64,000 nucleotides of DNA. Source: Streptomyces sp. NBC_01142 (GTDB lineage: Bacteria; Actinomycetota; Actinomycetes; Streptomycetales; Streptomycetaceae). The stretch's first letter is position 1, and every line of letters starts with the position of its first letter. Position numbers and translations under genes: made by a program. The stretch lies in the NCBI RefSeq assembly GCF_026341125.1, contig NZ_JAPEOR010000001.1, forward strand, positions 2,418,001-2,482,000. Direction: 5' to 3'. Positions 11,514 to 30,468 of this stretch are shown piece after piece. Under the pieces are notes generated by a model. The model worked only from the letters and a program-made list of their open reading frames with translations, did no database searches and was not told the origin of the DNA.

Positions 11514-11663
11514 CCGGGCCGGACGATCACGTAACACCACGCGCGGACCACGAAACACCGCGTGCAGCACGCAGCACAACAGGCACCACGTACCACGTAC
11601 CGCCACGCGTACCACCACCACGCCCTGCCCGCTCACCGGCCGCACCCGCCGAGGGGATTTGTC

Positions 11664-14218: not shown

Positions 14219-14280
14219 CCCACCACCCCCTCCCGCTTCCCCACATCTGTCGCACCACCCGGCCGAAGGGTTGATCCGTC

Positions 14281-15327
14281 ATGCCAGAAATCCCAGCCAC
14301 CAGCCGCAGAGGACTGCTTTTCGGCACTGCCGCGGTCTCCGCCGGCGCGCTGCTGACCGCCTGCACCAGCAACGAGCCCAAGAAGCAGGAACCGGCGACG
14401 AACAATGTGCCGGAGGCCGACGACAAGCCCGGCAAGGCCGTCACCATCGGCTTCGCCGGACCGCAGGCCGACCACGGCTGGCTGAACGCCATCAACGAGA
14501 ACGCCAAGGCACGGGCGAAGAAGTACTCCGAGGTGACCCTGGAGATCACTGAGGGGTCCAACGACACCGCCGCCCAGATCGGCCAGGTCCAGACCCTGAT
14601 CAACAAGAAGGTCGACGTCCTGGTGATCCTGCCGGCGGACGGCAAGGCTCTGACCCAGGTCGGTCTGCAGGCCATGAAGGCCGGAATCCCCGTCATCAAC
14701 CTGGACCGGGTCTTCGCCTCTCCGCAGGCGTACCGCTGCTGGATCGGCGGCGACAACTACGGCATGGGCCTCAACGCCGGCAACTACATCGGCGAGCAGC
14801 TCAAGGACAAGCCGAACGCCAAGGTCATCGAGCTCGCCGGCCTCGACAATCTGGAGCTCACCAAGCAGCGTACCCAGGGCTTCGACGACGCCCTGAAGAA
14901 CTACCCCAACATCAGGAAGGTGGCCCGCCAGGCCGCCGACTTCACCGTCGAGTCGGGCCAGGCGAAGATGGCCCAGCTCCTCCAGGCGCAGAAGCAGTTC
15001 GACGCCCTGTGGAACCACGACGACGACCAGGGGGTGGGCGCGCTGCGCGCCATCGCGCAGGCCGGCCGCAAGGACTTCCTGATGGTCGGTGGTGCCGGAG
15101 CCAAGTCCGCGATGGACGCCATCAAGGCCGACAACAGTGTTCTCAAGGCGACGGTCCTCTACCCGCCGACGATGGCCGCCTCCGCCATCGACCTCGCTCG
15201 CTCCCTCGGGCAGTCCAAGGGTCTCAGCGGGATGTCCGAACTGGAGATCCCCGCCTCGATCACCCTCTACTCGGCCGTCGTGACCAAGGAGAACGTGGAC
15301 GAGTACCTGCCCACGGGCTTCAGCTGA
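14281..15327 (+). CDS. Sugar-binding lipoprotein of the ABC importer, Tat-type signal
   Basis: 348 residues. The signal carries a twin arginine (SRRGLLFG) and a lipobox LTAC with the lipid-anchored Cys28, so the protein is probably exported folded and anchored outside the membrane. The mature part is a type I periplasmic-binding fold of the RbsB class (GFAGPQADHGWLNAINENA, QTLINKKVDVLVILPADGKAL, GGDNYGMGLNAGNYI). It captures the substrate for the importer. By position next to an inositol-type dehydrogenase and epimerase, a cyclitol or monosaccharide is likely, but the ligand cannot be fixed from sequence. Confidence 0.93.
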   Translation: MPEIPATSRRGLLFGTAAVSAGALLTACTSNEPKKQEPATNNVPEADDKPGKAVTIGFAGPQADHGWLNAINENAKARAKKYSEVTLEITEGSNDTAAQIGQVQTLINKKVDVLVILPADGKALTQVGLQAMKAGIPVINLDRVFASPQAYRCWIGGDNYGMGLNAGNYIGEQLKDKPNAKVIELAGLDNLELTKQRTQGFDDALKNYPNIRKVARQAADFTVESGQAKMAQLLQAQKQFDALWNHDDDQGVGALRAIAQAGRKDFLMVGGAGAKSAMDAIKADNSVLKATVLYPPTMAASAIDLARSLGQSKGLSGMSELEIPASITLYSAVVTKENVDEYLPTGFS

Positions 15328-15371: not shown

Positions 15372-16736
15372 ATGGAACAGAGGGACAGTGAGGCCAGTGA
15401 GGCCGCACCGTCGGCTGCCAGTGCACCGGCACCCGGTGGGTCGGGACCCGTTGTGCCGGCGTCCGGTGTGCCGACGCTCGGCGTCGGCATGGTCGGATAC
15501 GCCTTCATGGGCGCCGCCCACTCGCAGGGGTGGCGCACCGCGGGACGCGTCTTCGACCTCCCGATGCGGCCGGTCCTCGCCGCGATCGGCGGCCGTGACG
15601 CGGCCGCTGTGCGGGCCGCCGCCGACAAGCACGGCTGGGCGGCGGCGGAGACCGACTGGCGCGACCTCGTGACCCGCGACGATGTGCAGCTCGTCGACAT
15701 CTGCACACCGGGGGACAGCCATGCGGAGATCGCCGTCGCGGCGCTGGAGGCGGGCAAGCACGTGCTGTGCGAGAAACCGCTCGCCAACTCGGTCGCCGAG
15801 GCGGAGGCAATGGTCGCGGCGGCAGAACGGGCACGGTCCAACGGTCAGTTGGCGATGGTCGGCTTCAACTACCGGCGGGTGCCGGCGATCGCGTACGCCC
15901 GCCGGCTGATCACCGAGGGCAGGCTCGGGACGCTGCGCCATGTGCGGGTCACCTACCTCCAGGACTGGCTGGTCGACCCGGACTTCCCGCTCACCTGGCG
16001 GCTCAGGCGCGAGCATGCGGGATCGGGCGCACTCGGCGACCTCGGTGCGCACATCGTGGACCTCGCGCAGTATCTGGCGGGAGAGCCGCTGGTCGGGGTC
16101 TCGGCGCTGTCGGAGACATTCGTACGGGAACGGCCGCTGCTGCAGGGAGCCTCGTCCGGCCTCTCCGACTCTTCCGGTCTCTCCGACGTGTCCAGCACCT
16201 CCGGCTCGCCCGGCCTCTCCGGCCCGTCCCGCCTCTCCGCTCCGGGCGGCGGCGCGCGGGGGGCGGTCACCGTCGACGACGCGGCGCTGTTCACCGGCCG
16301 GCTCGCGTCGGGGACGCTGGCCTCCTTCGAGGCCACCCGGATGGCCTCGGGCCGCAAGAACGCCCTGCGGCTCGAAATCAACGGCGAGCACGGGTCGTTG
16401 GCCTTCGACCTGGAGCGGCTCAACGAGCTGTCCTTCCACGACCACACCGAGCCCGCCGCCTCCTCCGGTTTCCGCCGGATCCTGGTCACCGAGCCCGGCC
16501 ATCCGTACCTGGAGGCGTGGTGGCCGCCCGGTCATGCGCTGGGCTACGAGCACACCTTCGCCCACCAGGCCCGCGACCTGGTGGAGGCGATAGCCGCCGG
16601 GAAGGACCCCGCGCCGTCGTTCGCCGACGGACTCCAGGTGCAGCGGGTGCTCGCCGCGGTGGAGGAGAGCGCAGAGAAGAACGCCGTCTACACCCCCGTA
16701 CAGGCCGTGCCGGCCGTCCAGACACAGGCTCAGTGA
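15372..16736 (+). CDS. Gfo/Idh/MocA-family NAD(P)-dependent dehydrogenase
   Basis: 454 residues, longer than usual (~390). After a ~35-residue Ala/Pro/Ser-rich extension a Rossmann fold starts with GVGMVGYAFMGAAHS. The catalytic lysine motif CEKPLAN lies at about 133-138 and the MVGFNYRR motif follows. The C-terminal sheet domain contains GALGDLGAHIVDLAQYL. Between about residues 260 and 296 there is a Ser/Gly/Leu-rich insert (SSGLSDSSGLSDVSS and similar) built of short DNA repeats. It sits on a surface loop and probably does not affect catalysis. Enzymes of this family oxidise sugars or cyclitols, often at C3. It follows the importer by 44 bases and precedes an isomerase. Confidence 0.92.
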   Translation: MEQRDSEASEAAPSAASAPAPGGSGPVVPASGVPTLGVGMVGYAFMGAAHSQGWRTAGRVFDLPMRPVLAAIGGRDAAAVRAAADKHGWAAAETDWRDLVTRDDVQLVDICTPGDSHAEIAVAALEAGKHVLCEKPLANSVAEAEAMVAAAERARSNGQLAMVGFNYRRVPAIAYARRLITEGRLGTLRHVRVTYLQDWLVDPDFPLTWRLRREHAGSGALGDLGAHIVDLAQYLAGEPLVGVSALSETFVRERPLLQGASSGLSDSSGLSDVSSTSGSPGLSGPSRLSAPGGGARGAVTVDDAALFTGRLASGTLASFEATRMASGRKNALRLEINGEHGSLAFDLERLNELSFHDHTEPAASSGFRRILVTEPGHPYLEAWWPPGHALGYEHTFAHQARDLVEAIAAGKDPAPSFADGLQVQRVLAAVEESAEKNAVYTPVQAVPAVQTQAQ

Positions 16737-16748
16737 GGAGAGGTCCCC

Positions 16749-17753
<1,005 letters not shown>

Positions 17754-18027: not shown

Positions 18028-21000
18028 GTGCACAGGAAAAGGCTCAGAGCGCGCAAAGCACTCGCACTCCTCACCGGCAGCCTTCTCGCCGCAACCTCGC
18101 TCGCTTTCACCGCACCACAGATCGCGGCCGCCGCCGACCCCGACCCGGCGCCGGCCGCCGAGGAATTCCAGCAGGTCACCCTCGCCAAGGGCGGTGAGGA
18201 GACCGGCGAGCCCATGTCGCTGGCCGTGCTGCCCGACCGCAGCGTGCTGCACACCTCACGCAACGGCGAGCTGCGCATGACCGACAGTGCCGGCAACACC
18301 CGTGTGGTGGGCACCATTCCCGTCTACTCCCATGACGAGGAAGGCCTCCAGGGCGTCGGCCTCGACCCGAAGTTCAGCGAGAACCGCTTCGTCTACCTGT
18401 ACTACGCGCCGCCGATGAACACTCCGGCGGGCGACGCCCCCAACGAGGGCACCGCCGAGGACTTCGCCAAGTTCGACGGCGTCAACCGCCTCTCGCGCTT
18501 CGTCCTGAAGGCCGACGGCACCCTGGACAACGCCAGCGAGAAGAAGGTCATCGACATCCCGGCGACCCGTGGCATCTGCTGCCACGTCGGCGGTGACATC
18601 GACTTCGACGCTCAGGGCAACCTCTATCTGTCGACCGGCGACGACTCCAACCCCTTCGCCTCCGACGGATACACCCCCATCGACGACCGCCCGGGCCGAA
18701 ACCCGGCGTACGACGCCCGCCGCACCTCCGGCAACACCAACGACCTGCGCGGCAAGATCCTGCGGATCAAGGTCAACGACGATGCGTCGTACTCCATCCC
18801 CGACGGCAACCTCTTCGCGCCCGGGACCGACAGGACCCGGCCCGAGATCTACGCCATGGGCTTCCGCAACCCCTTCCGGTTCAGCGTCGACAAGAAGACC
18901 GGCATCGTCCACGTCGGTGACTACGGCCCCGACGCCGGCACCGCCGATCCCAAGCGCGGCCCGGGCGGGCAGGTCGAATTCGCCCGCGTCACCAAGGCCG
19001 GGAACTTCGGCTGGCCCTTCTGCACCGGCAAGAACAACGCCTACGTCGACTACGACTTCGCCACCAAGACGTCCGGCGCCACCTTCGACTGCGCGGCCCT
19101 GAAGAACGACTCGCCGTACAACACCGGACTGGTCGATCTGCCGCCCGCGCAGCCCGCCTGGATCCCCTACGACGGTGGCTCACTCCCCGAGTTCGGCACC
19201 GGCTCGGAGTCCCCGATGGGCGGACCGGTCTACCGTTACGACGCCGAGTCCACGTCCCCGGTGAAGTTCCCCGAGGCGTACGACGGCGACTTCTTCGCCG
19301 GTGAGTTCGGCCGCCGCTGGATCAAGCGGATCGAGCAGGGCGAGGACGGTGCGGTCCAGTCCATCAACCCCGTCCCGTGGACCGGGACCCAGGTGATGGA
19401 CATGGCATTCGGCCCGGACGGCGCGCTGTACGTCCTCGACTACGGCACCGCCTGGTTCGGCGGCGACGAGAACTCCGGCCTCTACCGGATCGAGAACGCC
19501 ACCGGCGGACGCTCCCCGGTCGCCGAGGCCGCCGCGAACAAGACCTCCGGCAAGGCGCCGCTGCGCGTCGCCTTCTCCTCCGACGGAACCACCGACGGCG
19601 ACGGCGACACCCTGACCTACGCCTGGAACTTCGGTGACGGCGGCACGTCCACCGCGGCCAACCCGACGTACACCTACAAGAAGAACGGCACCTACACGGC
19701 GACCGTCACCGCCAAGGACCCCAGCGGCCGGACCGGCTCCGCCAGTGTCCATGTGGTCGTCGGCAACACCGCCCCCAAGGTGACGCTCGAACTCCCTGTG
19801 GAGGGAGCGCTGTTCAGCTTCGGCGACGAGATCCCGTTCAAGGTGAGGGTCACCGACCCGGAGGACGGGACGATCGACTGCGCCAAGGTGAAGGTGACCT
19901 ACATCCTCGGCCATGACAGCCACGGCCACCCCATCACCTCGGCCAACGGCTGCTCCGGCACCATCAAGACCTCCTCGGAGGGCGGACACGACCCCAACGC
20001 CAATATCTTCGGCGTGTTCGACGCCGAGTACACCGACGGCGGTGGCGGCGGCCAGGCCGCGCTGACCACCCACGACCAGTCGCAGCTCCAGCCGCGCCAC
20101 CGGCAGGCCGAGCACTACAACAACTCCGCGGGCGTCAAGATCCACAACAAGAGCAGTGCGAACGGCGGCAAGACGGTCGGCGACATCCACAACGACGACT
20201 GGATCTCCTTCAAGCCGTACAACCTGACCGGATCCACCAAGCTCACCGCCCGGATCTCCTCCGGCGGCGCGGGCGGCTTCCTCGAGGTGCGCACGGGATC
20301 AGCGACCGGGAACCTGCTGGGGTCCGCCCCGGTGCCCGTCACCGGCAGCTGGGACACCTTCCAGGACATCGACGTACCGCTACGGGCCGTACCCAGCAAG
20401 ACCACTGAACTCTTCCTGGTCTTCAAGGGCGGCGCCGGAGCGCTCTACGACGTCGACGACTTCGAGCTCTCCCACAGCGCCCCCGACCGGACCGCCAAGC
20501 GCGTCCTGGTCTTCTCCAGGACCGCCGGCTTCCGCCACGACTCCATTCCGGCCGGCGTCGCCGCCCTCAAGGAACTCGGGAAGACCAGCAACGTCACGGT
20601 CGACTCCACCGAGGCGGCCGCGCAGTTCACCACCAGCAACCTCGCCCGCTACGACGCGGTCGTGTTCCTGTCCACCACCGGTGACGTACTCAACGCCGAC
20701 CAGCAGCAGGCGTTCGAGAACTATGTCGCCACCGGCGGCGGCTACATGGGCGTGCACGCCGCGGCCGACACCGAGTACGACTGGAAGTTCTACGGCGGGC
20801 TGGTCGGCGCGTACTTCGCCTCCCATCCGCAGATCCAGCCCGCGACCGTACGGGTCGAGGACCACACCCACCCGTCGACCGGGCATCTGGACGACGCCTG
20901 GGAGCGCACCGACGAGTGGTACAACTACCGCACCAACCCGCGCACCCAGGCCCGAGTCCTCGCCACCCTCGACGAAACCACCTACGAGGGCGGCACCATG

Positions 21001-21717
21001 AAGGGCGACCACCCGATCGCCTGGTGCCAGACGTACGAAGGCGGCCGCGCCTTCTACACCGGCGGAGGCCACACCAAGGAGTCGTACGCCGAGCCGGACT
21101 TCCGCCGGCATCTGCTGGGAGGACTGCGCTACGCCGCAGGCCAGGTCAAGGCCGACTGCACGCCGGCGACGGGGTACCGGCCCCTCTTCAACGGCAAGAC
21201 CCTGGACGGCTGGAAGCAGGCCGGGCCCGGCAAGTTCGCCGTCGTCGACGGTGAACTGCGTACCGAGGGCGGCATGGGCATGCTCTGGTACCAGGCCAAA
21301 GAGCTGAAGTCCTACTCCGTCAAGCTCGACTGGAAGATGGCGGGCGACGACAACTCCGGTGTGTTCGTGGGCTTCCCGGCCTCCGACGACCCCTGGTCGG
21401 CGGTGAACAACGGGTACGAGGTGCAGATCGACGCCACCGATGCGGCCGATCGCACCACCGGCGCCGTCTACGGCTTCAAGTCCGCCGACCTCAAGGCCCG
21501 CGATCGCGTGCTGCGGCCGCCCGGCCAGTGGAACAGCTACGAGATCCGGGTCCAGGGTGAACGCCTCCAGCTCTTCCTCAACGGAGCGAAGATCAACGAC
21601 TTCACCAACACCGACCCGGCGCGCAGCCTGAAGGACGGCCATATCGGTCTCCAGAACCACGGGGCCGACGACCAGGTGTCCTTCCGCAACATCCAGCTCA
21701 GGGTGCTGCCCTCCTAG
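18028..21717 (+). CDS. Secreted multidomain sugar-oxidising protein: propeller, PKD, CBM6-like, ThuA, DUF1080
   Basis: 1229 residues from a GTG with GGAGGAC upstream. A Sec signal peptide (about 1-36, ending APQIAAAA) leads to a glucose/sorbosone dehydrogenase-type beta propeller (about 46-490; ICCHVGGDIDFDAQGNLYLS, AMGFRNPFRFSVD). A PKD domain follows (about 496-575; YAWNFGDGGTS), then a linker, then a CBM6-like sugar-binding domain (about 688-818). A ThuA glutamine-amidotransferase-like domain spans about 823-1040 (VHAAADTEYDWKFYGGLVG). A DUF1080 domain, the fold of 3-keto-disaccharide hydrolases, spans about 1048-1229 (LFNGKTLDGWKQ). Known relatives of ThuA and DUF1080 act on 3-keto glycosides, so this protein may oxidise and cleave a glycoside outside the cell. 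The order of chemistry is inference. Confidence 0.9.
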   Translation: MHRKRLRARKALALLTGSLLAATSLAFTAPQIAAAADPDPAPAAEEFQQVTLAKGGEETGEPMSLAVLPDRSVLHTSRNGELRMTDSAGNTRVVGTIPVYSHDEEGLQGVGLDPKFSENRFVYLYYAPPMNTPAGDAPNEGTAEDFAKFDGVNRLSRFVLKADGTLDNASEKKVIDIPATRGICCHVGGDIDFDAQGNLYLSTGDDSNPFASDGYTPIDDRPGRNPAYDARRTSGNTNDLRGKILRIKVNDDASYSIPDGNLFAPGTDRTRPEIYAMGFRNPFRFSVDKKTGIVHVGDYGPDAGTADPKRGPGGQVEFARVTKAGNFGWPFCTGKNNAYVDYDFATKTSGATFDCAALKNDSPYNTGLVDLPPAQPAWIPYDGGSLPEFGTGSESPMGGPVYRYDAESTSPVKFPEAYDGDFFAGEFGRRWIKRIEQGEDGAVQSINPVPWTGTQVMDMAFGPDGALYVLDYGTAWFGGDENSGLYRIENATGGRSPVAEAAANKTSGKAPLRVAFSSDGTTDGDGDTLTYAWNFGDGGTSTAANPTYTYKKNGTYTATVTAKDPSGRTGSASVHVVVGNTAPKVTLELPVEGALFSFGDEIPFKVRVTDPEDGTIDCAKVKVTYILGHDSHGHPITSANGCSGTIKTSSEGGHDPNANIFGVFDAEYTDGGGGGQAALTTHDQSQLQPRHRQAEHYNNSAGVKIHNKSSANGGKTVGDIHNDDWISFKPYNLTGSTKLTARISSGGAGGFLEVRTGSATGNLLGSAPVPVTGSWDTFQDIDVPLRAVPSKTTELFLVFKGGAGALYDVDDFELSHSAPDRTAKRVLVFSRTAGFRHDSIPAGVAALKELGKTSNVTVDSTEAAAQFTTSNLARYDAVVFLSTTGDVLNADQQQAFENYVATGGGYMGVHAAADTEYDWKFYGGLVGAYFASHPQIQPATVRVEDHTHPSTGHLDDAWERTDEWYNYRTNPRTQARVLATLDETTYEGGTMKGDHPIAWCQTYEGGRAFYTGGGHTKESYAEPDFRRHLLGGLRYAAGQVKADCTPATGYRPLFNGKTLDGWKQAGPGKFAVVDGELRTEGGMGMLWYQAKELKSYSVKLDWKMAGDDNSGVFVGFPASDDPWSAVNNGYEVQIDATDAADRTTGAVYGFKSADLKARDRVLRPPGQWNSYEIRVQGERLQLFLNGAKINDFTNTDPARSLKDGHIGLQNHGADDQVSFRNIQLRVLPS

Positions 21718-21769: not shown

Positions 21770-21802
21770 TCTCCACCACACCGAATGGCAGGGAGGCAGC
21801 CT

Positions 21803-22981
21803 GTGTCCGCCGAGTCCGCCGAATGCGCTGAGCCCGTCGAGTCCGCCGAACTCGTCGAGTCCGCCGAGTGCGCTGGAAGAAGTGTCGGAGTCTGGTTCGT
21901 CGGAGCACGTGGTTCCGTCGCCACCACGGCGGTCGCCGGATGCGCGGCGGTCAGCGCCGGACTGCATCCGCCGAACGGCATGGTCACCGAGACCCCGCCG
22001 TTCTCGGGCTCCGGACTGCCCGCCCTGTCGTCGCTCGTCTTCGGCGGACACGACACCGCGCACTGTCCGCTGCCCAAACGCGCGGAGGAACTGACGACGG
22101 CGGGCGTGCTGCCGCACGGGCTCGCGGCGGCGGTACGCGGAGAACTCACCGCCGCCGACAACGAGATACGCCCAGGTGGTCCGCAGGCCGGCGACATTCG
22201 CACCGACGAAGAACTGATCGCCTCCTTCACCGCGGACCTGACAGGCTTCCGGGAACGCCACGGGCTCGCCCGGGTCGTCGTCGTCAATGTCGCCTCCACC
22301 GAACCGCAGCCCGCGCCCGACGCCGTACGGCTGCCGCCCAGCTCGCTGTACGCGGCCGCGGCGCTGAGAGCCGGCTGCCCCTACGTCAACTTCACCCCCT
22401 CCACCGGGCTGCGCACCGCCGCCCTCACTGCCGCCGCCGCGGCCAGTGGACTTCCCCACGCGGGCCGTGACGGCAAGACAGGCCAGACGCTGCTCCGTTC
22501 CGTGCTCGCCCCGATGTTCGTGCAACGTGCCCTGTCCGTACGGGCATGGTCGGGCACCAACCTCCTGGGCGGCGGGGACGGAGCGGCGCTGGCCGACCCG
22601 GCGGCCGCGGCCGCCAAGAACGCCGGCAAGGAACGCGTCCTGTCGGACACGCTCGGCCACACGCCCGAGGGTGAGGTCCACATCGACGACGTACCGGCTC
22701 TCGGCGACTGGAAGACCGCCTGGGACCACATCGCCTTCGAGGGTTTCCTCGGCTCGCGGATGATCCTCCAGACCATCTGGCAGGGCTGCGACTCGGCACT
22801 CGCGGCCCCGCTGGTCCTGGACCTGGCCAGGCTGGTGGCCCGCGCGCACGAGGCGGGAATCGCGGGTCCCCTCCCCGGACTGGGCTTCTACTTCAAGGAC
22901 CCGGACGGTGGCCCCGCGGGCCTGTCCGAACAGTTCACGCAGCTGCTCACCTTCGCCGACCGGCTGCGGGAGGCCAAGTGA
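21803..22981 (+). CDS. Inositol-3-phosphate synthase family protein heading the ebo-type operon
   Basis: 392 residues from the GTG at 21803 (GGGAGG upstream); an ATG at 21785 lacks a site. The first ~30 residues are an acidic Ser/Ala/Glu repeat (SAESAECAEPVESAE). Then comes the NAD-binding start VGVWFVGARGSVATTAVAGC. Later motifs (VNVASTEPQP, YVNFTPSTGLR, GRDGKTGQTLLRSVLAPMF, SGTNLLGGGDG) place it in the myo-inositol-1-phosphate synthase superfamily, which cyclises glucose 6-phosphate. It is divergent from the housekeeping enzyme. Its stop overlaps the UbiA-type gene. In classical ebo operons another sugar-phosphate cyclase (EboD, dehydroquinate-synthase-like) occupies this role. Confidence 0.85.
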   Translation: MSAESAECAEPVESAELVESAECAGRSVGVWFVGARGSVATTAVAGCAAVSAGLHPPNGMVTETPPFSGSGLPALSSLVFGGHDTAHCPLPKRAEELTTAGVLPHGLAAAVRGELTAADNEIRPGGPQAGDIRTDEELIASFTADLTGFRERHGLARVVVVNVASTEPQPAPDAVRLPPSSLYAAAALRAGCPYVNFTPSTGLRTAALTAAAAASGLPHAGRDGKTGQTLLRSVLAPMFVQRALSVRAWSGTNLLGGGDGAALADPAAAAAKNAGKERVLSDTLGHTPEGEVHIDDVPALGDWKTAWDHIAFEGFLGSRMILQTIWQGCDSALAAPLVLDLARLVARAHEAGIAGPLPGLGFYFKDPDGGPAGLSEQFTQLLTFADRLREAK

Positions 22982-24399
22982 CCCTGCGGGCCTGGGCGGA
23001 ACTACTGCGCGTCTCCGCACTCTTCACCGTCCCGGGCGACGCGCTGGCGGGCGCGGCCTCCGTGGGCCGTGCTCCCGACCGCGGCACCGCGTACGCGGTG
23101 GGCGCCTCACTGTGCCTGTACGAGGCGGGCATGGCGCTCAACGACTGGGCGGACCGCGAAGAGGACGCGGTGGACCGCCCCCACCGCCCGATTCCCTCGG
23201 GCCGCATCACCCCGGCCGCGGCGCTCACCGCGGCGGGCGCCCTGACGGCGGCCGGCCTGGCCCTGGCCTCCCGTGCGGGCCGCCCGGCCCTGGCGGTGGC
23301 GACGGCGCTTTCGGTGACGGTCTGGTCCTACGACCTCCACTTCAAGCACACCGGGGGCGGCCCGGCGGCCATGGCAACGGCGCGGGCACTGGACCTGGTG
23401 CTGGGGGCTGTGGCCACGGGCGCGGGCGCGGGCGCGGGCGCGCGCGGCGCGCAGCACGCACCGCCACCGGGCGCGGGAGGAGACGGTTCACCCAGGCTGA
23501 GCGCGAGTACGAAGAGCAGTGCGAGTACGCAGGGGAGCGCGAGTACGAAGGCGACCGCGAGCACGAAGGGCAGTGCGAGCACGTCAGGGAGCGAGAGCGG
23601 TGCGGCGGGTGCGACGGCGACGCGCGGGGTCCGTGCCGCCGGCCGCCCGCAGGCGCGGGGTGCGGGCTCGGAAGCCGCAGGTACGGCCCGGTCGGCCAGT
23701 CGTGCGGCATCGTGCCCCGGCGCACGGCCCACCGGCGGTGGAGGCAGGAGCCCCGCTCGGCCGACCACGTGGGACACAGGCATGGCTCGCCCGAGCGCGA
23801 GCACCCCGGGCGCGGCAGGGCGCCGCGGGCCGCGCCCGTCCGGCACCTCCGCCGCACGGATTGAGGACGCCACCGGTTTGCATCGACTGCCGGACGCGGG
23901 CCTGCGCGGCGCACTCGCCGCGCTGCCCGCTGCCGTCGTGCTCGGCGCGCACACCTATGCCGTGACCACCGTCTCGCGACACGAGGCTCAGGGCGGCTCG
24001 ACCTCCGCGCCGCTCGCCGCACTCGCGGCGAACCTCGGGCTCGGCGCCCTCGTGGCCCGCGAACAGCGGGGGCCCGGGGGCCCGCTCTCCACGCGGCGGA
24101 GGCGACTGCCGATGCGGCCAGGAAAGGGAGGGGCAGAGGGCCAGCACCTCACCCCCACAGGCCTCCTCGCCGCCGTACTCGCCGTCACCTACGTCCGCAC
24201 CGCTGCCAAGCCCCTCCTCCACGCCGCACTGAACCCCTCCCCGCCCCTCACCCAGCGCGCCGTCGGCGGCGGTATCCGGGCCATGATCCCGCTCCAGGCC
24301 GCCCTCGCCGCGCGCGCCGGAGCCACCGTCATCCCAGTCGCGGTCATGGGCCTCGTACCGCTCGCCCGCAAGCTCGCACGGAAGGTGAGCCCGACATGA
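22978..24399 (+). CDS. eboC: UbiA-like prenyltransferase (EboC type) with a ~147-residue low-complexity insert
   Basis: 473 residues, against ~300 for the family. The GTG overlaps the preceding stop by four bases. The first half is a normal UbiA membrane domain with the Asp-rich prenyl-diphosphate motif NDWADREEDAVDRPHRP (residues 55-71) and the YDLHFKH loop. From about residue 148 to 294 the chain is a Ser/Ala/Thr/Gly/Arg-rich insert that includes five 18-bp DNA repeats (23503-23592) coding for SASTKSSASTQGSAST-like units. Membrane segments resume at GLRGALAALPAAVVLGAHTY. The insert falls in a loop between membrane spans, so activity may survive. EboC proteins attach or act on prenyl-type lipids at the membrane. 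Confidence 0.85.
   Translation: MTLRAWAELLRVSALFTVPGDALAGAASVGRAPDRGTAYAVGASLCLYEAGMALNDWADREEDAVDRPHRPIPSGRITPAAALTAAGALTAAGLALASRAGRPALAVATALSVTVWSYDLHFKHTGGGPAAMATARALDLVLGAVATGAGAGAGARGAQHAPPPGAGGDGSPRLSASTKSSASTQGSASTKATASTKGSASTSGSESGAAGATATRGVRAAGRPQARGAGSEAAGTARSASRAASCPGARPTGGGGRSPARPTTWDTGMARPSASTPGAAGRRGPRPSGTSAARIEDATGLHRLPDAGLRGALAALPAAVVLGAHTYAVTTVSRHEAQGGSTSAPLAALAANLGLGALVAREQRGPGGPLSTRRRRLPMRPGKGGAEGQHLTPTGLLAAVLAVTYVRTAAKPLLHAALNPSPPLTQRAVGGGIRAMIPLQAALAARAGATVIPVAVMGLVPLARKLARKVSPT
23503..23592 (+). repeat. 18-bp tandem repeat, five units, inside eboC
   Basis: Units begin GCGAGTAC or GCGAGCAC and are 18 bp long, so the frame is kept (six codons per unit). They encode the Ser/Ala/Thr-rich part of the loop insert and are likely to vary in number between strains. 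Confidence 0.85.
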
Positions 24400-25307
24400 G
24401 CGACATGAGCCCCGATCCCCGCCCCGGCCTCCGCCCCGATCCCCGCCCCGAGCCGGTGATCCGCCTCGGCTACGGCACCAACGGGCTCACCGATCTCAGG
24501 CTCGACGACGCTCTCGCCCTCCTTGCCGACCTCGGCTACGACGGTGTGGGACTCACCCTCGACCATATGCACCTCGACCCCCTTGCCCCCGATCTGGCCA
24601 CCCGGACCCGCCATGTGGCGCAGCGGCTCGCCACGTTGGGCCTCGAGGTCACTGTGGAAACCGGCGCCCGTTACGTCCTCGACCCCCGCCGCAAACACGG
24701 TCCCTCCCTCCTCGACCCCGATCCCGGCGGCCGTGCCGCCCGTACCCGGCTGCTGATCACCGCCGTGCAGGTCGCCGCCGACCTCGGCGCCCACGCCGTG
24801 CACTGCTTCAGCGGAATCACCCCCGCGGCCACCCCCACCGACACTGCGTGGAAGCTCCTCGAGGAGTCCCTGACCCCCGTCCTGGACGCTGCCGCGACCG
24901 CCGGCATTCCGCTGGCCATCGAACCCGAGCCCGGTCACCTCCTTGCCACCCTCGCCGACTTCCACCACCTCCGCCGCACCCTCGGCGACCCCGACCCCCA
25001 GTTCCTCGGCCTCACCCTCGACATCGGCCACTGCCAGTGCCTGGAAGCCGCTGGGCCCGCCGACTGCGTACGCGACGCCGCCCCCTGGCTACGGCACGTC
25101 CAGATCGAGGACATGCGCCGCGGCGTCCATGAACACCTCCCCTTCGGCCACGGTGAGATCGACTTCCCGCCCGTGCTCGAAGCCCTCGCCGGCACCGGCT
25201 ATCAGGGACTCACCGTCGTCGAACTGCCCCGCCACTCGCACGCGGGCCCTGAACTCGCCCGCGCCTCCATCGAGTTCCTGCGGACGAAGGGAGCACCGGC
25301 ATGCTGA
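24396..25307 (+). CDS. Sugar phosphate isomerase/epimerase TIM barrel of the ebo-type operon
   Basis: 303 residues; ATG overlaps the UbiA stop by four bases. A short Pro/Arg/Asp-repeat N-terminus (PDPRPGLRPDPRPEP) is followed by a xylose-isomerase-like TIM barrel. The metal-site pattern is present: a Glu in PLAIEPEPGHLL, Asp/His in GLTLDIGHCQ, His in LRHVQIEDM and Glu in LTVVELPRHSH. It resembles EboE and AP endonuclease family 2 proteins. Substrate unknown; position between EboC and EboA suggests it acts on the cyclised sugar product. Its stop overlaps eboA by seven bases. Confidence 0.88.
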   Translation: MSDMSPDPRPGLRPDPRPEPVIRLGYGTNGLTDLRLDDALALLADLGYDGVGLTLDHMHLDPLAPDLATRTRHVAQRLATLGLEVTVETGARYVLDPRRKHGPSLLDPDPGGRAARTRLLITAVQVAADLGAHAVHCFSGITPAATPTDTAWKLLEESLTPVLDAAATAGIPLAIEPEPGHLLATLADFHHLRRTLGDPDPQFLGLTLDIGHCQCLEAAGPADCVRDAAPWLRHVQIEDMRRGVHEHLPFGHGEIDFPPVLEALAGTGYQGLTVVELPRHSHAGPELARASIEFLRTKGAPAC

Positions 25308-25897
25308 AGACCCGCAGGGAACTCGATGCGCAGCTCGGCGGAGCGGCGCGAGCCTGGCTCGACCAGGCGCTCACCGAAGCCGCGCGTGCGCTACCCGTGT
25401 GGGAGCTCCGGTTCGCGTCCGCCGGGCGCCACTGCGGCCAGGACCACGCCGACTCCGTACGCACTCTCCTCCTTCGGGAAGCGTGCGCCGACGGCGCCAC
25501 TCTCACCCGCCTCTACCAGCAGGGGACCGCCGCCGAACGCCGTGCCGTGCTCCTCGCCCTGCACTCCCTCGTCGGCAGCCCCGCCGCGCTGCCACTCCTC
25601 GAGGACGCCCTGCGCACCAACGACACCCGGCTCGTCGCCGCGGCCGTCGGCCCGTACGCCGCCGCGCACCTCGATGCGCATGCCTGGCGGCACGCGGTCC
25701 TCAAGTGCCTGTTCACGGGCGTGCCCGTGGACGCGGTCGCCGACCTGGAGCGCCGGGCCGCAGGCGACGGCGAGCTGGCCAGGATGCTCGCCGACTACGG
25801 CGCCGAGCGCACCGCCGCCGGCCGAACCGTCCCCTCCGACCTCCCTCGCGTACTGACCCTGACCGGCGAGCGGCCCGATCGGCCCGAGGAGTCCTGA
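25301..25897 (+). CDS. eboA: EboA-family metabolite traffic protein
   Basis: 198 residues, usual for EboA. This helical family has no known enzymatic activity; in cyanobacteria the ebo genes are needed to bring scytonemin precursors to the periplasm. Recognisable segments are RTNDTRLVAAAVGPYAA, AWRHAVLKCLFTGVPVD and ELARMLADYGAERTAAGR, the last two highly conserved in the family. The ribosome site AAGGGAG lies within the end of the preceding gene. The stop TGA shares a base with the ATG of eboB. It is the most specific marker that this operon is ebo-type. Confidence 0.87.
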   Translation: MLKTRRELDAQLGGAARAWLDQALTEAARALPVWELRFASAGRHCGQDHADSVRTLLLREACADGATLTRLYQQGTAAERRAVLLALHSLVGSPAALPLLEDALRTNDTRLVAAAVGPYAAAHLDAHAWRHAVLKCLFTGVPVDAVADLERRAAGDGELARMLADYGAERTAAGRTVPSDLPRVLTLTGERPDRPEES

Positions 25898-26745
25898 TGC
25901 GCATCTTCGACCCCCACATCCATATGACCTCCCGCACCACCGACGACTATCAGGCGATGTACGCCGCCGGTGTCCGTGCCCTCGTCGAACCGTCCTTCTG
26001 GCTCGGCCAGCCCCGCACCTCGCCCACCAGCTTCTTCGACTACTTCGACGCACTGCTCGGCTGGGAGCCCTTCCGCGCCGCCCAGTACGGCATCGCCCAC
26101 CACTGCACGCTCGCCCTCAACCCCAAAGAGGCGAACGACCCTCGCTGCACCCCCGTCCTGGACGCCCTGCCCCGCTATCTCGTCAAGGACTCCGTCGTCG
26201 CCGTCGGCGAGATCGGCTACGACTCCATGACCCCCGCCGAGGACACCGCCCTCGCCGCCCAGCTCCAGCTCGCCGCGGACCACGGCCTGCCCGTCCTCGT
26301 CCACACCCCCCACCGGGACAAGCTCGCCGGACTCCGCCGCACCGTCGACGTCATCCGTGAATCGAACCTCCCCACGGACCGCGTCCTGCTCGACCACCTC
26401 AATGAAACGACCGTAGAACACGCCACTGACAGCGGCAGCTGGCTCGGCTTCTCCATCTACCCGGACACCAAGATGGACGAGGACCGCATGGTCGCGATCC
26501 TGAAGACCTACGGAACCGAGAAGGTCCTGGTCAACTCGGCCGCGGACTGGGGCAGGAGCGACCCGCTCAAGACCCGCAAGGTCGGCGACGCCATGCTCGC
26601 CGCCGGCTTCACCGAGGACGACGTCGACCAGGTTCTGTGGCGCAACCCCGTCGCCTTCTACGGCCTCAGCGGCCGCCTCCAGCTCGACCTCCCCGAACCG
26701 GAGACCCTGCACGAGGGCAACTCCATTCTCCGCGGCGGGGAATGA
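25897..26745 (+). CDS. eboB: TatD-family metal-dependent hydrolase (EboB)
   Basis: 282 residues from the ATG at 25897 (TGATG junction with eboA). It begins MRIFDPHIHM, whose His7 and His9 are the first metal ligands of the TatD/amidohydrolase barrel. Other ligands are in GEIGYDS (Glu), LVHTPHRD (His), LLDHLNETT (His) and NSAADWGRSDP (Asp). The protein matches EboB, the hydrolase of ebo clusters, more than DNase-type TatD, which lacks the FYGLSGR ending. Substrate unknown. EboE follows 12 bases later with its own GAGGAGG site. Confidence 0.88.
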   Translation: MRIFDPHIHMTSRTTDDYQAMYAAGVRALVEPSFWLGQPRTSPTSFFDYFDALLGWEPFRAAQYGIAHHCTLALNPKEANDPRCTPVLDALPRYLVKDSVVAVGEIGYDSMTPAEDTALAAQLQLAADHGLPVLVHTPHRDKLAGLRRTVDVIRESNLPTDRVLLDHLNETTVEHATDSGSWLGFSIYPDTKMDEDRMVAILKTYGTEKVLVNSAADWGRSDPLKTRKVGDAMLAAGFTEDDVDQVLWRNPVAFYGLSGRLQLDLPEPETLHEGNSILRGGE

Positions 26746-26757
26746 GGAGGCACACGT

Positions 26758-27927
26758 ATGCGCTTCCGCCACCCCGACGGGACCACCGTCCACCTCTCCT
26801 ACTGCACCAACGTCCACCCCGCCGAAACCCTCGACGGTGTACTCGCCCAGCTTCGCGACCACTGCGAGCCCGTACGCAAACGCCTCGGCCGGGACCGCCT
26901 CGGCATCGGTCTCTGGCTCGCCAAGGACGCCGCCCACGCCCTGATCAACGACCCGGCGGCGCTGCGCGGCCTGCGCGCCGAACTCGACCGCCGCGGCCTG
27001 GAGGTCGTCACCCTCAACGGCTTCCCCTACGAGGGATTCGGTGCCGAGGAGGTCAAGTACCGCGTCTACAAGCCGGACTGGACCGCTCCCGAACGGCTCG
27101 CCCACACCACCGACCTGGCCCGCCTCCTCGCCGCCCTCCTTCCCGACGACGTCACCGAAGGCACCATCTCCACCCTCCCGCTCGCCTGGCGTACACCCTT
27201 CGCCGACACCGCGGCCGAGGCCGCGCACACCGCCCTGGCCACCCTCTCCGCGCGCCTCGACGCACTGGAGGAGCTGACCGGAAAGTCGATACGCATCGGT
27301 CTGGAGCCGGAGCCCGGCTGCACGGTCGAGACCACCGCCGACGCGATACGCCCCCTCACCGCCATCGGATCCCGGCGGATCGGCATCTGCATCGACACCT
27401 GCCACCTCGCCACCTCCTTCGAAGATCCCGGAACAGCCCTCGCCGCCCTCGACGCGGCAGGCGTCACCATCCCCAAGGCCCAGCTGTCCGCCGCCCTCCA
27501 CGCCCAGGAACCCCACCTCCCCGAAGTACGCGCCGCCCTCGCCGCCTTCGCCGAGCCCCGCTTCCTCCACCAGACCCGCACCCGCACCGCCGCCGGGCTT
27601 CGCGGCACCGACGACCTCGACGAGGCACTCGCCGGCGAGACGCTGCCCGACGGCGCCCCGTGGCGCGCCCACTTCCACGTCCCCCTGCACGCCCCGCCCG
27701 CCCCGCCGCTCGCCTCCACCCTCCCCGTACTCCAGGACGCCCTGACGCAGCTTGTCGGCGGCACCGGTCCCCGCACCCGCCATCTCGAGGTCGAGACGTA
27801 CACCTGGCAGGCGCTCCCCTCCGAGCTGCGTCCCCGCAACCGCACCCAGCTGGCCGACGGGATCGCCGCCGAACTCACCCTCGCCCGCGATCTCCTGACG
27901 GACCTCGGCCTGAAGGAGCTCCCATGA
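26758..27927 (+). CDS. eboE: EboE metabolite traffic protein, TIM-barrel
   Basis: 389 residues. The N-terminal signature LSYCTNVHPAETLDGVLAQL is characteristic of EboE. A TIM barrel of the AP endonuclease/xylose isomerase class follows: GIGLEPEPGC is present as IGLEPEPGCTVE, then GICIDTCHLATSFED with metal-binding Asp/His, and a final HLEVETYTW with Glu. The C-terminal half is Arg/Ala rich and less conserved. It probably isomerises or rearranges the sugar-derived ring; this has not been shown for the family as far as I know. Its stop overlaps eboF (ATGA). Confidence 0.88.
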   Translation: MRFRHPDGTTVHLSYCTNVHPAETLDGVLAQLRDHCEPVRKRLGRDRLGIGLWLAKDAAHALINDPAALRGLRAELDRRGLEVVTLNGFPYEGFGAEEVKYRVYKPDWTAPERLAHTTDLARLLAALLPDDVTEGTISTLPLAWRTPFADTAAEAAHTALATLSARLDALEELTGKSIRIGLEPEPGCTVETTADAIRPLTAIGSRRIGICIDTCHLATSFEDPGTALAALDAAGVTIPKAQLSAALHAQEPHLPEVRAALAAFAEPRFLHQTRTRTAAGLRGTDDLDEALAGETLPDGAPWRAHFHVPLHAPPAPPLASTLPVLQDALTQLVGGTGPRTRHLEVETYTWQALPSELRPRNRTQLADGIAAELTLARDLLTDLGLKELP

Positions 27928-29399
27928 CCGATGCCAGCGACAGCAGCGATGTCAGCGATGCCACCGACGCCGCCACCCCCAGCGACCGCAACGACCCCGC
28001 CGGGACCGCAAGCCCCACCCCTCTCCTGGTCCTGGACGTCGTCGGTCTCACCCCCCGGCTCCTCGACCACATGCCCCACCTGAAATCCCTCGCCCGGTCC
28101 GGCTCCCAGGCCCCCCTTTCCACTGTGCTGCCCGCCGTCACCTGTGCCGCCCAGTCCACCTTCCTCACCGGCGCACTCCCCGCCGAACACGGCATCGTCG
28201 CCAACGGCTGGTACTTCCGTGAACTCGGCGACGTCCTGCTGTGGCGCCAGCACAACGGCCTCGTCTCCGGCGACAAGATCTGGGACGCCGCCCGCCGTGT
28301 CCACCCCGGCTACACCGTTGCCAACATCTGCTGGTGGTACGCGATGGGCGCAGACACCGACATCACTGTCACTCCCCGCCCCGTCTACTACGCGGACGGC
28401 CGCAAGGAACCCGACTGCTACACCCGGCCCCCGGCCCTGCACGACGAACTCACCCGGAAATTCGGCACCTTCCCCCTCTTCCACTTCTGGGGCCCGGGCG
28501 CGGACATCGTCTCCAGCCAGTGGATCGCCGACGCGACCCGCCACATCATGCGCACCCGACACCCCGACCTGACCCTGTGCTACCTCCCGCATCTCGACTA
28601 CGACCTGCAGCGCTACGGCCCCGACGACCCCCGCTCCTACCGTGCCGCCGCCGACCTCGACGCCGTCATCGCTCCGCTGCTGGACGATGCCCGTCAGGAA
28701 GGCCGCACCGTCGTCGCCCTGTCGGAGTACGGCATCACCCGCGTCAGCCGGCCCGTCGACATCAACCGCGCCCTGCGCCGCGCCGGCCTGCTCGAAGTGC
28801 ACACCCAGGACGGCATGGAGTACCTCGACCCGATGGCCTCACGGGCCTTCGCCGTCGCCGACCACCAGCTCGCCCATGTCTACGTACGCCACCCCGAAGA
28901 CCCCGGAGAACTCGCCGCCACCCGCGAAGCCCTCGAGGACCTCCCGGGCATCGAGCAACTCCTCGACGACGAGGGAAAGAAGGCCCACGGCCTCGACCAC
29001 CCCCGGTCCGGCGAGCTCGTCGCCATCGCGGAACCCGACGCCTGGTTCACGTACTACTACTGGCTCGACGACGCCCGCGCCCCCGACTTCGCCCAGCTCG
29101 TCGAGATCCACCGCAAACCCGGCTACGACCCGGTCGAGCTGTTCATGGACCCGCTCGACCCGTACGTACGCCTCAAGGCGGCCAAGGCGATCGTCCGCAA
29201 GAAGCTCGGCATGCGCTACCGCCTGGCGGTCGTGCCCCTCGACCCCTCACCTATTCGCGGCAGCCATGGCCGCCTTCCCACGAGCGACGACAGTGACAAC
29301 GGACCGCTCATTCTGTGCTCCACCCCCCGCGCTGTGGATGGCCGTGTCGCGGCCACCGATGTGAAGTCCCTGCTGCTTCAACTCGCTGGTCTCCACTGA
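27924..29399 (+). CDS. eboF: EboF-type alkaline phosphatase superfamily phosphodiesterase
   Basis: 491 residues. The first ~32 residues are a Ser/Asp/Ala repeat (SDSSDVSDATDAA) that precedes the folded domain. The domain is of the nucleotide pyrophosphatase/phosphodiesterase kind: LLVLDVVGLTPRLLDH supplies a metal-binding Asp, and TCAAQSTFLTGALPAEHGI the Thr nucleophile and His. LPHLDYDLQRYG and ALSEYGITRV supply further Asp/His or Glu ligands. It likely removes a phosphate or cleaves a phosphodiester of the pathway lipid. No signal peptide is seen. A 37-base gap leads to the secreted TIM barrel. Confidence 0.87.
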   Translation: MTDASDSSDVSDATDAATPSDRNDPAGTASPTPLLVLDVVGLTPRLLDHMPHLKSLARSGSQAPLSTVLPAVTCAAQSTFLTGALPAEHGIVANGWYFRELGDVLLWRQHNGLVSGDKIWDAARRVHPGYTVANICWWYAMGADTDITVTPRPVYYADGRKEPDCYTRPPALHDELTRKFGTFPLFHFWGPGADIVSSQWIADATRHIMRTRHPDLTLCYLPHLDYDLQRYGPDDPRSYRAAADLDAVIAPLLDDARQEGRTVVALSEYGITRVSRPVDINRALRRAGLLEVHTQDGMEYLDPMASRAFAVADHQLAHVYVRHPEDPGELAATREALEDLPGIEQLLDDEGKKAHGLDHPRSGELVAIAEPDAWFTYYYWLDDARAPDFAQLVEIHRKPGYDPVELFMDPLDPYVRLKAAKAIVRKKLGMRYRLAVVPLDPSPIRGSHGRLPTSDDSDNGPLILCSTPRAVDGRVAATDVKSLLLQLAGLH

Positions 29400-29436
29400 A
29401 CCAGACGCCACTGACAATCCGATCCCAGGAGATCCC

Positions 29437-30468
29437 ATGAGCCGCACGAGCAAGGCCAACGACCCCGAACTCGCCCACAAGCTCAGCAGACGCAACATGC
29501 TCGGCGTCGCCGCGGGCGCGACCGCCGCCGCCCTCCTCGGCGCCTCGGCGAGCCCCGCCGCCGCCCACAGCAAGGGCCGCGGCCGCCCCGTCCTTCCCCC
29601 CGGCCGCCTCGGCATCCAGCTGTACTCGCTGCGCGACAAGGTCTCCACCCTCGGATTCGCCAAGGTCTTCGCCGAGCTGGAGCGCTATGGATACGACGAG
29701 GTCGAGTACGCCGGCTACACCCAGGGCGCCGCGGGCGCCATCACCCTTGCCCAGCTCAGGCAGTTGACCCGTGACCACGGACTGCGCGGAATCGGCAGCC
29801 ATGTCAACTACTACGACGACAGCAACCCGGGCGCCTACAGCTTCGCTCAGAACCTCGACAGGGTCCTCGACGACGCCCAGGCCCTCGGCCTCGAGCACAT
29901 CGGCACCGCATCCGGCCCCTGGCGCTACGGTGCGACGGTCGACGGCTGGAAACGCTGCGCGGAGGACTTCAACCACTACGGCGCCGAGGCACGCAAGCGC
30001 GGCATGAAGTTCTACCAGCACAACCACGCCGAGGAATTCTCCTTCGCGACCGACAAACCGCACATCCGCCTCTATGACGTTCTGCTGGCCGAGACCGACC
30101 CCGACCTGGTCTTCCTGGAGATGGACATCTACTGGGCGTACGCGGGCCAGTTCCGCTTCTCCCAGCGCGTCGACGGCACGCCCGCTCCTTTCGACCCGCT
30201 GCGCTATGTCCTCAAGCAGCCCGACCGCTACCCGCTCTTCCACGTCAAGGACGGCGAACACGACGCGTCCGCCCGCGACGGGTACCGCATGGTCGACGTC
30301 GGGGACGGGGACATCGACTACAAGCGTTTCATCTCCGCGGTGAGCAGGACTCACGGCGGACGCAAGGACCACCACTGGCAGGCCGAGCACGACAACCCCG
30401 TCGAGTCGTTCGCGTTCGCCCGCAAGTCCAGCGCTCACCTTCACTCACTGCGCGAGAAGGACTGCTAG
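29437..30468 (+). CDS. Tat-secreted sugar isomerase-like TIM barrel
   Basis: 343 residues with AGGAGA upstream. A twin-arginine signal is clear (LSRRNMLGVAAGATAAALL, then ASPAAAH). The mature part is a xylose-isomerase-like TIM barrel: LGIQLYSLRDK at the start, YQHNHAEEF, FLEMDIYWAYAGQ, PLFHVKDGEHD and AEHDNP carry the Glu/His/Asp metal positions. Homologues occur with ThuA and DUF1080 proteins in bacteria that handle keto sugars outside the cytoplasm. Export by Tat suggests the metal is loaded first. It is the last gene before the 12-bp terminator at 30519. Confidence 0.9.
   Translation: MSRTSKANDPELAHKLSRRNMLGVAAGATAAALLGASASPAAAHSKGRGRPVLPPGRLGIQLYSLRDKVSTLGFAKVFAELERYGYDEVEYAGYTQGAAGAITLAQLRQLTRDHGLRGIGSHVNYYDDSNPGAYSFAQNLDRVLDDAQALGLEHIGTASGPWRYGATVDGWKRCAEDFNHYGAEARKRGMKFYQHNHAEEFSFATDKPHIRLYDVLLAETDPDLVFLEMDIYWAYAGQFRFSQRVDGTPAPFDPLRYVLKQPDRYPLFHVKDGEHDASARDGYRMVDVGDGDIDYKRFISAVSRTHGGRKDHHWQAEHDNPVESFAFARKSSAHLHSLREKDC

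Follow-up and report, generated by a model that had tools for sequence, protein, structure and literature searches.

A form of the ebo operon in Actinomycetes with an inositol-3-phosphate-synthase-type cyclase in the place of EboD

The ebo operon was named in Yurchenko 2016 (PMC5133447), the consulted parts of which leave its product unknown, propose an isoprenoid-cyclitol lipid for it and mention both instances without eboD and actinobacterial proteins in which a TIM barrel is fused to EboA. A use of ebo in metabolite transfer was proposed in PMC6282210; according to the sections of that paper drawn on here, the scytonemin monomer stays in the cytoplasm in ebo mutants of Nostoc punctiforme, ebo being needed for its membrane transfer, and ScyE is proposed to be an enzyme of the periplasm to which the monomer passes after this ebo-dependent transfer. 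In addition, in vitro farnesylation of an aromatic acid is known for an EboC (Ubi-297), as stated in the portion of PMC9235831 used here. We analysed a stretch of 64,000 nucleotides of Streptomyces sp. NBC_01142 (contig NZ_JAPEOR010000001.1, positions 2,418,001 to 2,482,000), hereafter the window, which carries an ebo operon headed by a cyclase of the inositol-3-phosphate synthase family (MIPS) instead of EboD, a sugar phosphate cyclase of the dehydroquinate synthase type. Compared to the scytonemin-associated ebo cluster of Nostoc punctiforme (PMC6282210), the same kinds of EboA, EboB, EboC, EboE and EboF are present and some actinobacterial loci share a ScyD/ScyE neighbour, whereas in Nostoc an EboD homologue lies nearby.

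The run comprises eight genes on the + strand at 21803-30468, with spacings of -4, -4, -7, -1, +12, -4 and +37 bases when the MIPS start is taken at GTG 21803, which bears out the initial annotation of an eight-gene run with overlaps of 1-7 bases or short gaps. Up to 29399, the gene order is MIPS-EboC-TIM1-EboA-EboB-EboE-EboF, in which neighbouring genes overlap by 1-7 bases except at a single gap of 12 bases, and the eighth gene, TIM2, starts 37 bases past the EboF end (29399 to 29437). The MIPS open reading frame (ORF) is also open from ATG 21785; since a GGGAGG at 21791-21796 ends six bases 5' of GTG 21803, this GTG is the likelier start. Consensus scans returned no promoter or terminator sites. 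The genes, with the evidence for each, are:

21803..22981, + strand: MIPS, a cyclase of the inositol-3-phosphate synthase family that takes the position of EboD (PF07994, PF01658, 1u1i, catalytic positions)
22978..24399, + strand: EboC-like UbiA membrane prenyltransferase, SCO3242 subfamily (NF045897, NDxxDxxxD motif, Azospirillum EboC match)
24396..25307, + strand: TIM1, TIM barrel resembling xylose isomerase, present in most MIPS-type cores (PF01261, 150 bits)
25301..25897, + strand: EboA-domain protein (NF035938)
25897..26745, + strand: EboB, TatD-like metal-dependent hydrolase (PF01026, identity to Azospirillum and Aureibacter EboB)
26758..27927, + strand: EboE, TIM barrel 'metabolite traffic protein' (NF035939)
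27924..29399, + strand: EboF, type I phosphodiesterase / alkaline-phosphatase-like hydrolase (PF01663, Azospirillum EboF match)
29437..30468, + strand: TIM2, TIM barrel whose N-terminus carries a twin-arginine-like signal, SRRNML, recognised by eye (PF01261, 61.5 bits)

A search with profile hidden Markov models gave scores above the cut-offs for the EboA domain (NF035938, 160.7 bits, cut-off 50), EboE (NF035939, 427.5 bits, cut-off 250), EboF (PF01663, 231 bits, cut-off 23) and, as a TatD protein, EboB (PF01026, 48 bits, cut-off 27); with the full-length EboA model NF035937 the score was below cut-off (59.7 bits, cut-off 320). The EboC-like protein passed the model of the 'SCO3242 family prenyltransferase' (NF045897, 354.8 bits, cut-off 260) and did not reach the EboC equivalog cut-off (NF035940, 109.4 bits versus 250). 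When the Azospirillum proteins were used as queries, EboB (368 bits), EboF (539 bits) and EboC (52 bits) each had a single match in the whole genome (E <= 0.001), in every case the window gene, and these genes are therefore orthologues and not chance family members. Window EboB is 57% identical to that of Azospirillum and 48% to that of Aureibacter, and EboF is 57% identical to its Azospirillum counterpart; over the operons of Azospirillum, Aureibacter and Deinococcus (one Deinococcus used), identities amount to 39-57% for EboB, 31-39% for EboE and 43-57% for EboF. Of the Ebo proteins recognised initially, EboA, EboB, EboE and EboF thus stand by profiles or orthology, and EboC stands as a member of the SCO3242 subfamily, not as the equivalog. 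Among the matches with names, the closest to the window genes come from Streptomyces.

UbiA-family enzymes transfer prenyl groups, and the NDxxDxxxD motif is kept in the window EboC and in all 11 EboC types aligned. The same protein contains a low-complexity, SAST-rich insert at residues of about 150-310, which is shorter or absent in several relatives. The solved chain nearest to the EboE profile is the weakly matching inosose isomerase IolI 1i60 (E 6e-4); this nearness fits a ring chemistry and proves nothing.

No EboD was found in or beside the window operon. The genome holds two PF01761 genes, one AroB-like and the other coding for a further sugar phosphate cyclase on a separate contig, and neither adjoins ebo. 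On an EboD profile, built from three proteins (Azospirillum, Mycetohabitans and Ketogulonicigenium) annotated as '3-dehydroquinate synthase' beside eboE, the AroB-like protein scores 138 bits and the second cyclase 145 bits versus 436-555 bits for EboD controls outside the profile (Salipiger, two Deinococcus and Aureibacter), in agreement with the absence of EboD noted at the outset. Nor was an EboD-grade match obtained in 394 Actinomycetes genomes, 380 of which match the profile with a best score of 174 bits (up to four candidates being scored in each). The second cyclase gene (L013, 955-2178; L numbers denote the loci compared), on the 37-kb contig C12 of the same genome, belongs to the dehydroquinate-synthase family, is not an EboD by profile and adjoins an ORF whose translation reads as transketolase-like.

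MIPS-family enzymes cyclise hexose phosphates. The first protein of the operon passes both Pfam models of the family (PF07994, 121 bits, cut-off 25; PF01658, 105 bits, cut-off 27), which, together with its operon position, bears out the view that a cyclase unrelated to EboD occupies the place of the latter. Its nearest solved protein is the MIPS of Archaeoglobus fulgidus (1u1i, 202.9 bits), with which it shares the catalytic Lys, Asn and Asp positions and from which it differs in being encoded within a prenyltransferase/Ebo operon. The positions aligned with the catalytic Asn, Lys and two Asp of 1u1i are invariant in all 33 operon MIPS proteins sampled, one further aligned Asp position holds Asp in 30/33 and Asn in 3/33, and two Lys positions coincide with those altered in the solved chains 3qvw and 3qvx, the roles and numbering of the catalytic residues being as we presume them. 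A MIPS-family enzyme with a different product, the five-membered-cyclitol-phosphate synthase 6k96, reaches 39.5 bits to the window protein. The housekeeping INO1 of mycothiol synthesis was considered as an identity of the window protein and rejected on its TIGR03450 score of 27.1 bits versus a cut-off of 638 and on the number of PF01658 genes in the genome, which holds three of them, so that the operon MIPS is an extra copy.

To see how far this arrangement extends, EboE was searched in the 394 Actinomycetes genomes, with members in 98 (over cut-off in 90), which include 28 of the 40 genomes of the window's genus. The class survey comprises 93 EboE places over cut-off besides the window, all with their surroundings; with five lone remote EboE loci (L154, L184, L187, L198 and L199) kept out of the operon counts, 88 ebo operons spanning 24 genera and 11 families were obtained. 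MIPS is found in 82 of these 88 (23 genera, 11 families) and EboD in none, and the exact order MIPS-EboC-TIM1-EboA-EboB-EboE-EboF is present in 76. Further loci from a phylum survey have MIPS in 4/4. Among the best 80 of 574 confirmed stretches, all Streptomyces, MIPS occurs in 64, or in 64/66 of those with at least 5.6 kb upstream, and EboD in none; no eboD was seen just outside the operon in relatives, neither in the 93 class loci nor in these 80. The survey for the synthase with EboA and without EboD thus upholds the exchange of cyclases proposed in the initial annotation, and what does not stand is the idea of a special operon: the MIPS-type operon is the usual actinobacterial form of ebo. 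EboE-like matches below cut-off (18 places, e.g. G440:C17 and G550:C1) mostly cover profile positions 1-242 and stem from about 15 genomes of one family (f68), and at the Streptomyces locus L069 the first set is interrupted after EboE and before EboF by a second, divergent EboA-EboB-EboE-EboF set.

TIM1 has a match in 82 of the 93 class loci and none in L117, L119, L140 and L146, which keep MIPS and EboA. It is mostly part of the conserved core, and its adjacency to EboA in the window is in line with the actinobacterial TIM barrel-EboA fusions mentioned in the consulted parts of PMC5133447. In the 78 class loci with all five genes compared, MIPS distances correlate with EboE distances with r = 0.922, a value reached by 0/500 permutations, next to 0.924 for TIM1, 0.919 for EboF and 0.868 for EboB. 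The synthase tracking EboE in this way, instead of varying independently of it, indicates that MIPS belongs with the operon, and none of the refuting observations named in the initial annotation was made.

The word 'inositol' is absent from the main texts of PMC5133447 and PMC6282210 and from PMC9235831, and in open-licence PubMed Central we found neither a full text describing a MIPS-type ebo operon nor a later paper naming the ebo product. The pair formed by a transferase and a MIPS has a precedent in SCO3242 and SCO3243 of Streptomyces coelicolor, listed as 'putative transferase' and 'myo-inositol phosphate synthase' and counted with the CDA antibiotic cluster (PMC3610822, in its consulted part). 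The SCO3242 family model also recognises the window EboC, whereas that part of PMC3610822 treats the pair as antibiotic-cluster genes without an ebo link.

Both cyclase types were also encountered on plasmids. Of 48 plasmid records with EboE, 16 loci were compared, with EboD only in 7, MIPS only in 8, both in 0 and a lone EboE in 1:

EboD-type: Azospirillum L104, Mycetohabitans L108, Ketogulonicigenium L109, Deinococcus L223 and L228, Aureibacter L224, Salipiger L225
MIPS-type: Streptomyces L105, L106, L107, L110, L227 and L283; Nonomuraea L226; Gemmatirosa L111

The EboD-type operons, as described in PMC5133447 and seen in these seven loci, share EboA (or EboG), EboB, an EboC-like protein, EboE and EboF with the window and differ from it in cyclase (EboD versus MIPS and usually TIM1), EboC subfamily and gene order. 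Several plasmid loci have further neighbours: the lone eboE of L112 (8995-10173) is embedded in a type II polyketide cluster carried by a Streptomyces plasmid, with no other ebo genes within 9 kb on either side, the MIPS-type operon L110 adjoins FAD monooxygenase, adenylosuccinate lyase and glutamine-synthetase-like genes, and others lie beside genes for an adenylation-domain protein (L227) or phosphopantetheinyl transferases (L105, L227).

The Gemmatirosa locus has EboG-EboB-EboF-EboC-MIPS-TIM1 on the same strand and a divergent EboE, 'EboG' being the label given here to a protein 38% identical to that of a small gene of Deinococcus at the position of eboG in PMC5133447. Its EboE falls inside the EboD-type EboE clade (100/100 support), as sister to that of Mycetohabitans (96/86). 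For the MIPS trees, 31 outgroup loci were tried, of which 16 were usable in a first tree and five of these were reused in a second. In the first tree the Gemmatirosa MIPS groups with the actinobacterial ebo MIPS. The movement of one MIPS and TIM1 module between Actinomycetes and Gemmatimonadota was not upheld after the tree had been enlarged by the A. fulgidus MIPS and further sequences; because the Gemmatimonadota MIPS then groups with the A. fulgidus protein, a shared origin of the exchanged module is not supported. That an EboD-type lineage acquired a MIPS independently, as suggested by this one Gemmatimonadota locus, appears at least as likely.

The window operon is preceded by a second set of genes, probably a 3-keto-glycoside pathway that recurs beside ebo operons:

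11562..15327, + strand: sugar ABC importer with ATPase, permease and binding protein (PF00005, PF02653, PF13407)
15372..16736, + strand: Gfo/Idh/MocA dehydrogenase, levoglucosan/inositol-dehydrogenase-like (NF052479, 348.6 bits, cut-off 650, and IolG, 111.8 bits, cut-off 355, neither reached)
16749..17753, + strand: TIM0, TIM barrel related to 2-hydroxy-3-keto-glucal hydratase (8ro4, 139.6 bits; 2zds, which we take to be SCO6571 of S. coelicolor, 714.7 bits)
18028..21717, + strand: 1229-amino-acid GSDH-PKD-CBM6-ThuA-3-keto-disaccharide hydrolase fusion with a signal-like N-terminus recognised by eye (domain profiles)

Genes of this kind oxidise glycosides and carry out elimination, hydration and reduction on them, as described in the sections of PMC10628242 used here. 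With the deglycosylation operons covered there (levoglucosan and AtOGE/AtHYD pathways) the window set shares the Gfo/Idh enzyme, the hydratase-related TIM0 and the 3-keto-disaccharide hydrolase domain; it differs from them in flanking ebo and in having the GSDH-ThuA-3-keto fusion. At least one relative of GSDH, ThuA, the 3-keto hydrolase, Gfo/Idh, TIM0 or the binding protein was found within about 9 kb in 64 of the 88 operons (9 of 11 families), versus 0/20 control windows, hand-chosen and not random in 20 survey genomes, and 0/5 lone-EboE loci; matches to the ABC ATPase, present in 4/20 control windows, were counted neither there nor in the 64/88. An ORF directly upstream of MIPS was obtained for 75 of the 82 MIPS loci by a crude codon-composition pick, and is of the GSDH/ThuA/keto type in 37, Gfo/Idh in 6, ScyE-like in 3, TIM2-like in 1, ABC in 1 and other in 27, some of the latter being wrong-framed. 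The Gemmatirosa locus has Gfo/Idh (29%) and TIM0 (60%) relatives nearby, and the EboD-type cluster of Ketogulonicigenium contains two annotated Gfo/Idh genes plus a TIM barrel.

The last gene of the window operon fits this flanking set as well. The solved chains nearest to TIM2 are 8tcd, 8tcr and 8tcs of the sugar-phosphate-isomerase family (72 bits), which we take to be 3-keto-glycoside lyases, and relatives of TIM2 lie near 46 of the 93 class loci versus 76 of the best 80 of 574 Streptomyces loci, some of them just 34-37% identical. Because of this limited presence in the class and since the isomerase-family likeness fits the flanking genes, TIM2 is placed outside the conserved core and more likely belongs to the 3-keto-glycoside set than to a new ebo step. 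The suggestion that two TIM barrels widen the ebo pathway would consequently hold for TIM1 and probably not for TIM2.

A further group of neighbours consists of ScyD/ScyE-family genes, for which the NCBIfam family is over cut-off in five loci with a MIPS-type ebo (L106, L123, L151, L037 and L084) and annotated in L107:

L106, 3221-4423: ScyD/ScyE-family gene, directly upstream of MIPS
L107, 3207-4406: ScyD/ScyE-family gene, directly upstream of MIPS
L123, 3523-4554: ScyD/ScyE-family gene, directly upstream of MIPS
L151, 1946-2989: ScyD/ScyE-family gene, directly upstream of MIPS
L037, 14219-15271: ScyD/ScyE-family gene
L084, 14178-15287: ScyD/ScyE-family gene

None of the 20 control windows has a match to this family, and no ScyE was found among the scanned ORFs flanking the window operon. 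Upstream of MIPS in L149, a ScyE-like match of 64 bits marks a further candidate. The occurrence of ScyD/ScyE beside ebo of both cyclase types supports a shared function of ebo.

Taken together, it is well supported that MIPS stands in for EboD, and the conserved exchange of two unrelated ring-forming enzymes lends independent support to the cyclitol idea. As best explanation we propose, with a probability of about 0.55, that the MIPS-type ebo operon of Actinomycetes makes an isoprenoid-cyclitol lipid for moving small molecules; judging from the encoded enzymes, the product would start from a cyclitol and be a prenylated cyclitol. MIPS would turn a hexose phosphate, probably glucose 6-phosphate, into inositol phosphate, which would replace the EboD product as the ring for prenylation. 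This ring may be reshaped by TIM1 and/or EboE, the membrane enzyme EboC would attach the isoprenoid chain, and EboF and EboB could remove phosphate or carry out other hydrolysis. The resulting lipid would help small molecules to get to the outer side of the membrane, where the probably secreted enzymes coded nearby (GSDH-ThuA-3-keto-hydrolase and ScyD/ScyE-family) may then act on them, and either of the two unrelated cyclases would open the way to the same kind of product, each being able to replace the other.

Several observations weigh against this proposal. Six class operons are without MIPS, of which three (L138, L172 and L173) are cut by a contig end, two (L014 and L127) are second copies in genomes that also hold a MIPS-bearing ebo copy, and one, L167, is a true exception with Gfo/Idh and importer genes directly upstream. 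The operon of L146 (8965-12824) is reduced to MIPS, EboA, EboB and EboE, with no match to EboC, TIM1 or EboF, and L193 is without an EboC match. The survey itself covers the EboE places over cut-off; the 18 matches below it include the sole matches of 8 of the 98 genomes. The 11 aligned EboC types have no clear second Asp-rich motif, with (S/A)(R/K)xE-like residues instead at the position where we would expect it. The 3-keto-glycoside set is absent at threshold beside the seven EboD-type loci, bar ABC ATPase and permease matches in L104. With the A. fulgidus MIPS added to the tree, the Gemmatimonadota MIPS joins the archaeal protein (99/95, long branch). Moreover, the ring made by MIPS is presumably phosphorylated and lacks the ketone that EboD-type products should have, so that the later steps of the two ebo types cannot be identical. 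As to the exception L167, in which both MIPS and TIM1 are lacking, the same genome holds MIPS-like (46%) and TIM1-like (50% to Gemmatirosa) genes at L282 (2969-8885); these were considered as an explanation of L167 and rejected, as they cluster with YcaO and methyltransferase-like genes and not with ebo.

Alternatively, MIPS and TIM1 could serve the flanking inositol/3-keto-sugar metabolism and merely share the operon, the ebo product being made without a cyclitol. The recurrence of flanking Gfo/Idh, TIM0, binding protein or GSDH/ThuA/3-keto-hydrolase relatives near 64/88 operons and the IolG score of the window Gfo/Idh enzyme, 111.8 bits albeit below the cut-off of 355, speak for this. Yet 24/88 operons are without such neighbours in the stretch covered, with MIPS nevertheless present in 82/88, and the plasmid loci L105, L106, L107, L110, L226 and L227 keep MIPS-EboC-TIM1-EboA-EboB-EboE-EboF without those genes (ABC ATPase aside), which makes this reading unlikely. 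The supply of EboD in trans by a sugar phosphate cyclase encoded at another place in the genome, with MIPS as an unrelated addition, would require the second PF01761 protein on contig C12 to be that enzyme; this candidate was rejected on its profile score, which at 145 bits lies near that of AroB (138) and far from the EboD controls (436-555), and with the profile never above 174 bits across the 394 class genomes (at most four candidates scored per genome) we find this scenario hardly credible.

A different role for the product has also been weighed, namely a prenylated ring electron carrier or cofactor for extracytoplasmic oxidoreductases such as GSDH propellers and ScyE-type proteins, instead of a translocation lipid. 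A UbiA-type enzyme is present in every ebo type, oxidation and dehydration of a cyclitol could be carried out by the cyclase, the IolE/IolI-like TIM barrels (weak scores) and the Gfo/Idh neighbours, genes of the GSDH and ScyE types are repeatedly found immediately upstream, and cofactor synthesis is one option named by Klicki 2018 in the sections used here (PMC6282210). However, no aromatising enzyme is evident, and the retention of the scytonemin monomer in the cytoplasm of Nostoc ebo mutants, as reported in the same sections of PMC6282210, is a defect in transport and not in oxidation; we therefore regard a cofactor as quite unlikely.

Extending the isoprenoid-cyclitol lipid to ebo at large, one may tentatively picture a modular pathway in which EboD and MIPS are interchangeable and MIPS was recruited more than once, in Actinomycetes and separately in the Gemmatimonadota operon, and in which the lipid would serve secreted oxidoreductases whose substrates are aromatic metabolites (ScyE-linked) or glycosides (GSDH/ThuA/3-keto-linked), the actinobacterial product being a prenylated inositol derivative; we consider this wider scheme possible rather than probable. 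To our knowledge, prenylated inositol derivatives are not a known lipid class. With the GSDH/ThuA/3-keto and ScyE-type proteins, candidate partners of ebo are now named, and the SCO3242 and SCO3243 genes of the CDA cluster are tied to what may be a general membrane-traffic or cofactor system.

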